The notes under the pieces are model-generated. The model saw only the letters and a list, made by a program, of their open reading frames with translations. It did not search any database and had not been told where the DNA came from. A program made the translations under genes and the position numbers. From an uncultured Pelagibacteraceae bacterium (lineage in GTDB: Bacteria; Pseudomonadota; Alphaproteobacteria; Pelagibacterales; Pelagibacteraceae), in NCBI GenBank assembly GCA_902521005.1, contig CABYPZ010000004.1:1-64000 (forward strand): DNA of 64,000 nt. The letters run 5' to 3'. Below are positions 17,745-19,848 of the stretch, piece after piece; the first letter of the stretch is position 1, and each line of letters opens with the position of its first letter.

Positions 17745-18884
17745 ATGATAAAATCTTTTAAAGTAGAGATTTCAAATGAAATTCTTCAAAATATAAATTC
17801 AAAAGTAAAAAACTATCAATGGCATGAAATGCCTGATGATGGAGGTTGGGATTATGGAACAAATTTAGATTATATGAAAGAATTTGCTGAATATTGGAGC
17901 AGTAAGTTTGATTGGAAAAAAACTGAAGAAAAAATAAATAAATTTAAAAATTTTAAAACTAATATTGATGGAATTGATATTCATTTCATCCATGAAAAAG
18001 GAAGTGGATCAAATCCTAAACCTTTATTATTAAATCATGGTTGGCCAGGATCAATAGTAGAATTTTTGGACATTATAGATCAACTAGCACATCCAGAAAA
18101 TTACGGAGGTAATATACAGGATGGTTTTGATGTAGTTGCACCTTCGCTTCCTGGTTATGGATTTTCAGGTCGACCTTCAAGACCTATAGGTCCAAGAAAA
18201 ATGGCATCAATATTTAATTCACTCATGACAAATTCTCTTGGTTATGAAAAATATATCTCACAAGGAGGAGACTTTGGTGGAACCATCTGTACTTGGTTAG
18301 CATACGACTTTCCAGAAAGTTTATTAGGAATTCATATAAATATTTTAATTATAAGACACCCAGATGGTCCTCAAACAAAAGAAGAAATTGAATGGCAGGA
18401 TAGATTTAAGTTGGAACAAAGAATTGAAGATGGATATAGAACTCAGCAATCTACAAAACCACAAACATTAAGTTATGCAATGATGGATAGTCCAGTTGGT
18501 GTTGCAGCCTGGATGATTGAAAAAATGCGGGGATGGTCTGATATTAAAGATGGAAACATTGAATCTGTTTATTCAAAAGATATTTTATTATCAAATATTA
18601 TGCTTTATTTAGTAACTAAAACATTCAATACTTCAACTTGGATTTATTATGGAAGAAGAGAAGAGGGGGGAAGATCACTTCCTAAAGACCATTTACCACT
18701 AAAAGTTCCAACAGCTATAGCTAAATTTCCAAAAGAATATTTAGAATGGGCTCCAAGATCTTATGTTGAAAGGATATATAATGTAAAACAATGGACAAAT
18801 ATGCCTGCTGGTGGTCATTTTGCAGCTTTAGAAAAACCAGATTTATTGATAAAAGATATTATAGAATTCGGAAAAAAATTATAA
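17745..18884 (+). CDS. Epoxide hydrolase (alpha/beta-hydrolase with EHN domain)
   Basis: The 379-residue protein has the N-terminal epoxide-hydrolase domain (ISNEILQNINSKVKNYQWHEMPD) followed by an alpha/beta-hydrolase core. Recognisable motifs are the oxyanion-hole NHGWPGSIVEF, the nucleophile elbow SQGGDFGGTICTWLA (Asp), PGYGFSG, and the catalytic His in AGGHFAALEKPD near the C-terminus. Likely opens epoxides to diols; the natural substrate is unknown. Its stop codon overlaps the ATG of the PsiE-like gene (TAATG). Confidence 0.85.
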   Translation: MIKSFKVEISNEILQNINSKVKNYQWHEMPDDGGWDYGTNLDYMKEFAEYWSSKFDWKKTEEKINKFKNFKTNIDGIDIHFIHEKGSGSNPKPLLLNHGWPGSIVEFLDIIDQLAHPENYGGNIQDGFDVVAPSLPGYGFSGRPSRPIGPRKMASIFNSLMTNSLGYEKYISQGGDFGGTICTWLAYDFPESLLGIHINILIIRHPDGPQTKEEIEWQDRFKLEQRIEDGYRTQQSTKPQTLSYAMMDSPVGVAAWMIEKMRGWSDIKDGNIESVYSKDILLSNIMLYLVTKTFNTSTWIYYGRREEGGRSLPKDHLPLKVPTAIAKFPKEYLEWAPRSYVERIYNVKQWTNMPAGGHFAALEKPDLLIKDIIEFGKKL

Positions 18885-19264
18885 TGGAAAAAATTACAAA
18901 ATATTTACAGCTTACTTTACTGTCAATAATACTTCTTAGTACAGTAATTGCTGTAGGCATTGAAATTAGAACAATGTTTATAAATCAATCTGTTACTTTA
19001 GCAGATCTTCTATTAATGTTTCTTTATTTAGAAGTTTTGGCAATGGTAAGAGTATTTTGGGATCAACAATCAATCAGTATAACTTTACCATTATTAATAG
19101 CTATTACAGCGCTAGCTAGATTTATTATTCTTCAAGGTAAAGAAATGAACCCTTCAGGATTAGTATATGAAGCAGTAGCTATACTTCTAATAGCTGGAGC
19201 AATTGTAGTTTTAAGACTACGACATAGTGAAAAATTGGGACTTAAAAAAAATAAAAAAAGGTAA
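18884..19264 (+). CDS. PsiE-like membrane protein
   Basis: The track begins this ORF at 18791, but the real start is the ATG at 18884, which overlaps the epoxide hydrolase stop by one base and gives 126 residues; the upstream extension is the hydrolase read in another frame. The protein has four hydrophobic helices (LTLLSIILLSTVIAVGIEI, LLLMFLYLEVLAMVRVF, ITLPLLIAITALARFII, VYEAVAILLIAGAIVVL) ending in a basic tail, matching the phosphate-starvation-inducible PsiE family in length and topology. Function of the family is unknown. Confidence 0.78.
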   Translation: MEKITKYLQLTLLSIILLSTVIAVGIEIRTMFINQSVTLADLLLMFLYLEVLAMVRVFWDQQSISITLPLLIAITALARFIILQGKEMNPSGLVYEAVAILLIAGAIVVLRLRHSEKLGLKKNKKR

Positions 19265-19278
19265 TTTTTAAAATTAAA

Positions 19279-19455
19279 ATGAATTTAAGTCTTTTAGCAA
19301 TAATTATATACGCTACAGGAATTTTATTTGGAGCTTTTTTCCTAGATATTTGGGGAGCAGAGACAACAATTTTAAAAGGAATTATAGGATTAGTTTGGAC
19401 AGCAATTTTTTTAATTACATTATTTTATGCAGAAAAAAAGAACAACAAAAACTGA
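19279..19455 (+). CDS. Small membrane protein, 58 residues
   Basis: Too short for the ORF track. ATG at 19279 encodes MNLSLLAIIIYATG... ending YAEKKNNKN, with two hydrophobic segments (residues about 3-22 and 32-50) around a short acidic loop (DIWGAETT). It starts 14 bp after the PsiE-like stop on the same strand, which supports real translation. No known family recognised. Confidence 0.6.
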   Translation: MNLSLLAIIIYATGILFGAFFLDIWGAETTILKGIIGLVWTAIFLITLFYAEKKNNKN

Positions 19456-19555
19456 GAGTATTCCTAAAGGATTCGCAAGGAAATATATAAAATATTATTA
19501 TGGGGTTTTCTGGACCATTTTAATAATATTTTTAATTTTCAAACTATCAAATTGA
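19427..19555 (+). CDS. Small basic single-span membrane protein, 42 residues
   Basis: Too short for the ORF track. ATG at 19427 overlaps the 58-residue gene by 29 bp in another frame. The product begins MQKKRTTKTESIPKG, then a basic amphipathic stretch ARKYIKYYYG, and one hydrophobic segment VFWTILIIFLIFKL. The positive-inside charge distribution and lack of another gene here make it plausible. Its TGA touches the Fur-box palindrome. Not recognised. Confidence 0.45.
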   Translation: MQKKRTTKTESIPKGFARKYIKYYYGVFWTILIIFLIFKLSN

Positions 19556-19572
19556 TAATGATTATCATTATT
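19554..19572. promoter_or_regulatory. Fur-box-like operator
   Basis: GATAATGATTATCATTATT matches the classical 19-bp Fur consensus GATAATGATAATCATTATC at 17 positions and contains a perfect 17-bp palindrome, ATAATGAT-T-ATCATTAT (19555-19571). It lies about 97 bp before the ATG of the cysteine-rich gene and just after the stop of the 42-residue ORF. Confidence 0.75.
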
Positions 19573-19604
19573 GAAAATAATCAAGAAAAAAAAATTTATT
19601 TTTT

Positions 19605-19623
19605 GAGAATGATAATCAATAAA
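19605..19623. promoter_or_regulatory. Second, weaker Fur-box-like site
   Basis: GAGAATGATAATCAATAAA agrees with the Fur consensus at about 15 of 19 positions, including the core AATGATAATCA. It lies 51 bp after the first site (start to start) and 46 bp before the cysteine-rich ATG, so the two could bind cooperatively. Confidence 0.5.
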
Positions 19624-19668
19624 ACACTTATTTATTGATTAAATTTTTTAAATCCATATTTATTAATT

Positions 19669-19848
19669 ATGGAAACTCAAACTTATAACTGTAAAAAATG
19701 TGGACTTACAATTTCATCTACTTGTTCAAAGTGTGATAAAGTTGTTGATGTAAAAGTTTTAGATGATGGTTGCATTGTTCAATTAACAAAATGTTTTGAT
19801 TGTGCTAATGTGCCAGTAATAAAAGATATTTGTACTGAAGTTAAGTAA
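19669..19848 (+). CDS. Cysteine-rich 59-residue protein, putative metal binder under Fur-type control
   Basis: Too short for the ORF track. ATG at 19669 to TAA at 19848. The product has eight cysteines in 59 residues: three CxxC pairs (Cys8/11, Cys19/22, Cys42/45) plus Cys35 and Cys55. C8/C11/C19/C22 resemble a zinc-ribbon or rubredoxin-like knuckle set. No signal peptide or membrane segment, so cytoplasmic. Two Fur-like boxes lie directly upstream, suggesting induction by iron (or another metal) limitation; it could store, deliver or sense metal. I do not recognise a named family. It converges on dhaL with 22 bp between. Confidence 0.7.
   Translation: METQTYNCKKCGLTISSTCSKCDKVVDVKVLDDGCIVQLTKCFDCANVPVIKDICTEVK

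Follow-up and report, generated by a model that had tools for sequence, protein, structure and literature searches.

A conserved eight-cysteine mini-protein gene of SAR11 bacteria preceded by paired Fur-type boxes

The gene described here maps to positions 19669–19848, forward strand, of a 64,000-nucleotide stretch of Pelagibacteraceae DNA (hereafter the window) and encodes a small, probably cytoplasmic protein of 59 residues. The protein contains eight cysteines, arranged as C-x2-C-x7-C-x2-C-x12-C-x6-C-x2-C-x9-C, six of which form three CxxC pairs (CKKC, CSKC and CFDC). On one side the gene is flanked by a 58-residue ORF, itself adjacent to psiE, and on the other by a dhaL-like gene in convergent orientation. 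The region at 18884–19455 accommodates the PsiE-family membrane protein and, directly upstream of the gene, the 58-residue ORF, which is also predicted to encode a membrane protein.

A first-pass annotation had described this locus as an unannotated, cysteine-rich ORF of 59 codons, and the reading frame, the eight cysteines and the three CxxC pairs are all found as described. On comparative grounds the ORF is a real gene, because homologues (the gene itself or its sister family B, see below) are present in 125 of 297 Pelagibacteraceae genomes (protein search, E ≤ 1e-3), the median pairwise dN/dS of about 0.09 indicates purifying selection, and an alignment of 17 homologues from five genera shows no substitution at any of the eight cysteines. 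With eight invariant thiols, the protein very likely binds metal. A literature search retrieved no earlier account of the gene, nor of any Fur regulon in SAR11.

A scan of GTDB genomes identified 318 related stretches. The best 80 of the 318 are all from Pelagibacteraceae, and nearly all come from single-cell genomes. The copy of the nearest relative (AG-908-E21) is 98% identical. The gene is not confined to a single streamlined genome, being widespread in the family; about one in two near-complete genomes of the genus does not have it, so that it is accessory. At the class level, a clear homologue of the same type (family A) was found in only one genome outside Pelagibacteraceae. This 59-residue homologue (L165, G553) belongs to another alphaproteobacterial family and is not preceded by a Fur box. 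A phage origin was rejected, as no match was found in phage records and none was confirmed in viral contigs.

Searches of Pfam, NCBIfam, PHROGs and the PDB yielded no match above cut-off for the 59-residue protein. The desulforedoxin model (TIGR00319) remained under its cut-off (E = 0.66), rubredox_RCKP gave its best value, also below cut-off, on sister family B (E = 0.015), and the x7 spacing of the 59-residue protein departs from the CxxC...CC or long CxxC-CxxC arrangement of those proteins. For bacterial metallothioneins, no Pfam or NCBIfam profile matched the protein. Desulforedoxins, rubredoxins and zinc-ribbon proteins share CxxC knuckles with the protein, but the spacing is different and no curated cut-off is exceeded. 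Bfd ferredoxin and the FbpA/B/C proteins of B. subtilis are also tiny, and are Fur-regulated, but no sequence match to them was found; Bfd carries four cysteines, differently spaced, and a [2Fe-2S] cluster, and FbpA/B/C are basic and not cysteine-based. An AlphaFold model obtained with 28 homologues (pLDDT 59, pTM 0.34) was too poor for a fold search.

Family B proteins (63 residues, with a range of 61–64) are homologous to family A over their full length and share with it C8, C11, C19, C22, C42 and C55, but lack C35, feature a C-terminal CCG and are encoded in a different neighbourhood. In the sampled genomes, family B is found in place of family A. Proteins of this type (L044–L073, L078–L082; MATYECSKCGMSVNATCxKC...SPLCCGQDMSC) are present in many SAR11 genera and in a few other marine proteobacteria, and belong to no named family; the third CxxC is often changed to CPxxH. 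None of the family B copies inspected is preceded by a Fur box.

These data bear on the notion that the protein has no part in metal homeostasis and is instead a small adaptor or nucleic acid-binding ribbon with zinc as a structural ligand of its cysteines, the partner of which is unrelated to iron, with Fur control being incidental. The best weak matches of the 59-residue protein are indeed zinc ribbons (Pfam DZR, E = 0.002, 18.6 bits, under the cut-off of 27.3), and the frequent replacement of cysteine by histidine in family B (KCPDDHGK), the inspected copies of which have no Fur boxes, is typical of zinc ligands. However, the deep conservation of the family A Fur boxes and the irr/katG/peroxiredoxin surroundings described below make this a very improbable account.

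The distal box, GATAATGATTATCATTATT (19554–19572), starts 115 bp before the ATG and matches the Fur consensus GATAATGATAATCATTATC at 17 of 19 bases, with an 8+1+8 palindrome spanning 17 bp, in line with what had been claimed. It is the best match to the consensus in the 1.0-Mb assembly, featuring a single mismatch when W is allowed at the centre. The next-best places in the genome have three mismatches each, and a reversed control pattern has no match at all, so that chance does not account for the site. When a looser pattern is used, nearly all other matches genome-wide fall inside genes, with few exceptions, and tandem intergenic pairs of boxes were found only before this gene and before sfuC. 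The proximal box, GAGAATGATAATCAATAAA (19605–19623), starts 64 bp before the ATG. A second, weaker site 51 bp on had been reported, and a site starting at 19605 is present; yet it is this supposedly weaker box that is conserved, at the same position in most homologues across genera, whereas the strong distal site at −115 varies more among relatives.

Alignment on the box of 52 non-redundant upstream sequences revealed that the element at −64/−65 stands out against diverged flanks, and its conservation across genera is well above that of a shuffled null. One genus (L040, L041) has this box at −85 instead. A second box was identified in 43 of 46 non-redundant upstreams, versus 0.1% in shuffled sequence, at offsets of 22 (n = 2), 30–31 (n = 19), 41 (n = 5), 49–51 (n = 15), 62 (n = 1) or 87 (n = 1) upstream of the proximal one. 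All spacings but 87 are close to 2, 3, 4, 5 or 6 helical turns (~10.3 bp), a pattern suggestive of helical phasing of the paired boxes in what is a tree-free count over few independent lineages. Conservation of both box and cysteines in SAR11 relatives, on which the initial proposal had been made to depend, is evident from homologue alignments and upstream regions, and the original observation is correct and stronger than first claimed.

The predicted −35 element, TTGATT (19635–19640, forward strand; family consensus TTGAAA), is part of a signal conserved in all homologues, TTG being found at −34/−35 in 79/79. Among the 52 non-redundant upstreams, its first three bases are conserved in 50 (T), 51 (T) and 48 (G) sequences; the conserved TTGA(AA) begins about 11 bp past the end of the box, and TA occurs at −12. 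A weak −10 element, TATTTA (family TATTTT/TAATTT), is predicted at 19657–19662 on the same strand, after a 16-bp spacer. This spacer length is the best one in 63 of 79 homologues, with a mean −10 score barely above that of shuffled sequence, and TAnnnT is found at −12/−13 in 62 of 79. Because the TTG is present at −34/−35 in every homologue and a Shine-Dalgarno-like sequence in just 2 of 79 loci, the transcript is probably leaderless, with a start site that is predicted. An alternative promoter in which TTGA at the edge of the box would act as −35 was rejected, as some homologues have C instead of the upstream T and a −10 to go with it is not conserved.

SAR11 bacteria outnumber all other marine heterotrophs and frequently experience iron stress; what is known of their Fur regulon comes mainly from sfuC. 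The sfuC gene (SAR11_1238), encoding an iron(III) ABC transporter binding protein, is induced 16-fold under iron limitation, and suf genes about 2-fold (PMC2864753). A Fur motif identical in type to that described here is found in 27 of 29 SAR11 sfuC upstreams, usually as a pair 22 bp apart. The two loci are alike in motif, tandem arrangement, intergenic location and family-wide conservation. In contrast to those of the 59-residue protein gene, the sfuC boxes are 22 or 27 bp apart and appear to overlap the promoter, and sfuC is preceded by a leader that frequently includes a Shine-Dalgarno sequence. In 19 of 24 sequences box 1 contains TTGATA, a plausible −35, and the expected −10 position falls within box 2; sfuC consequently exhibits a repressor geometry, matching its induction under iron limitation. 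A conserved TGCGAC is also found in sfuC upstreams (L169–L195), about 11–13 bp 5′ of the first Fur box.

In most relatives of the genus, the gene is found in a cluster of the type irr - katG - oxygenase-like - DUF2061-like - 59-residue protein gene, and in 17 of 79 loci the convergent downstream neighbour is a peroxiredoxin-like gene (gene names in both cases were assigned by eye from sequence). katG is present in 53 of the 54 genus genomes carrying the gene, versus 10 of at least 26 genomes lacking it, the number of gene-negative genomes being a lower bound (Fisher p ~3e-9; the statistic ignores relatedness, and katG and the gene are often physically linked). The association also holds where the two genes sit on different contigs. 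For instance, in the genome to which the window belongs, irr and katG map to another contig and not beside the gene. A fixed operon with katG was rejected, since the gene is served by a conserved promoter of its own and is not consistently partnered with any one gene in the different genera.

Three Fur-family proteins are encoded in the genome, namely L001 (Fur, beside a miaB-like gene), L002 (Irr-like, beside katG) and L003 (Zur, beside znu genes). The boxes are palindromes located in the promoter region, are conserved beyond background and share their motif with iron-responsive sfuC. Taken together, these sequence features make membership of the Fur regulon highly probable, in agreement with the Fur control initially claimed, and binding of both boxes by Fur would be the most economical reading. 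Zur control was rejected on motif and is unlikely, because the znuA/znuC intergenic region bears a distinct GTTATATTATAAC box, which differs from the boxes described here. The two GTTATATTATAAC-like palindromes found between the divergent znuA and znuC genes (L225, G000:C1) are probable SAR11 Zur boxes. Control might also be exerted by another Fur-family protein, either Irr or a manganese-sensing Fur (Mur), in which case heme, manganese or peroxide, and not iron itself, would be the signal. Alphaproteobacterial Fur may act as a manganese regulator, irr belongs to the same cluster in many relatives, and the genome has three Fur-family proteins to choose from. We consider this improbable nonetheless, as the motif is a classical Fur box common to iron-responsive sfuC, and the Zur box at znu is a different one.

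The position of the boxes may bear on the sign of control. Both lie upstream of the conserved −35 and overlap neither the −35 nor the −10 in the homologues examined. Taking the ATG as +1, box centres are near −55 and mostly at −77 to −106. E. coli Fur sites have a median position of −20 when repressing and −74 when activating (PMC10219339). The zitB gene of Streptomyces coelicolor is activated by Zur, whose box there is 8 nt upstream of the −35 and whose oligomer footprint reaches as far as −138 (PMC5472717). zitB resembles the SAR11 gene in having a Fur-family box just 5′ of the −35 (8 nt versus ~11 bp here) and more binding upstream; it differs in the metal sensed, in lacking a conserved second box and in its product, a zinc exporter. 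Activation, proven at zitB, is inferred for the 59-residue protein gene, as are Fur as the binder, metal binding and function. The role as an iron-limitation factor suggested by the first-pass annotation is not supported by this arrangement, since boxes upstream of the −35 conform to the geometry reported for Fur- and Zur-activated genes (PMC5472717, PMC10219339). The protein may thus be produced under iron-replete conditions. Activation and repression are nearly even, activation by iron-loaded Fur being slightly favoured, and a role under iron limitation is one of two nearly equal readings.

If iron-loaded Fur represses the gene, the protein would be made under iron limitation, serving in metal buffering or re-routing or as an iron-sparing replacement. 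Repression could be achieved by blocking the region contacted by the RNA polymerase alpha subunit (UP region), or by looping between phased dimers. Fur is mainly a repressor. Strong palindromic boxes such as these, which resemble those of iron-limitation-induced sfuC, usually mediate repression, and cooperative repression would also be compatible with tandem sites in helical phase. Moreover, activating Fur sites of E. coli are weaker and not palindromic (PMC10219339). Unlike at sfuC, however, the conserved −35 and −10 are free of boxes in the homologues examined, and the repressing sites of E. coli centre near −20 (PMC10219339). We regard repression as a serious possibility, somewhat short of an even chance.

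Our preferred reading, which is itself tentative and falls a little below even odds, is that of a Fur-activated, metal-holding mini-protein involved in iron/peroxide homeostasis. The gene would belong to a Fur regulon that is very small in SAR11. Dimers of Fur would occupy two boxes set approximately whole helical turns apart, directly 5′ of the −35 of a weak, probably leaderless promoter; iron-loaded Fur would contact RNA polymerase and stimulate transcription under iron sufficiency, in the manner of Zur at zitB. Because neither box covers the promoter, Fur would most likely activate here, and the same Fur, placed over the sfuC promoter, would repress there. The product would hold one or two metal ions via its eight cysteines, and could function in metal buffering or as a redox carrier. 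SAR11 cells are reported to lack ferritin. The more specific proposal that iron-loaded Fur, through two helically phased boxes 5′ of a leaderless promoter, directly activates the mini-protein, which would buffer or safely carry iron or another metal at high iron or peroxide as a minimal, ferritin-independent response to iron sufficiency, is rather unlikely in this full form.

The 59-residue protein is probably an overlooked part of SAR11 iron management. Its gene would represent a second strong, conserved Fur target in SAR11, missed because of its small size, and could serve as a marker of iron status in metatranscriptomes. The two-box geometry leads to a clear prediction as to the sign of Fur control in SAR11.

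A single, weaker Fur-like site, GATATTGATTATTGTTCTC, was also identified at G000:C12:22279-22297 (L220), in the intergenic region upstream of an IscR/Rrf2-like gene. Genes of the IscR type usually head the suf operon, and the site may provide a possible link between Fur and suf genes.
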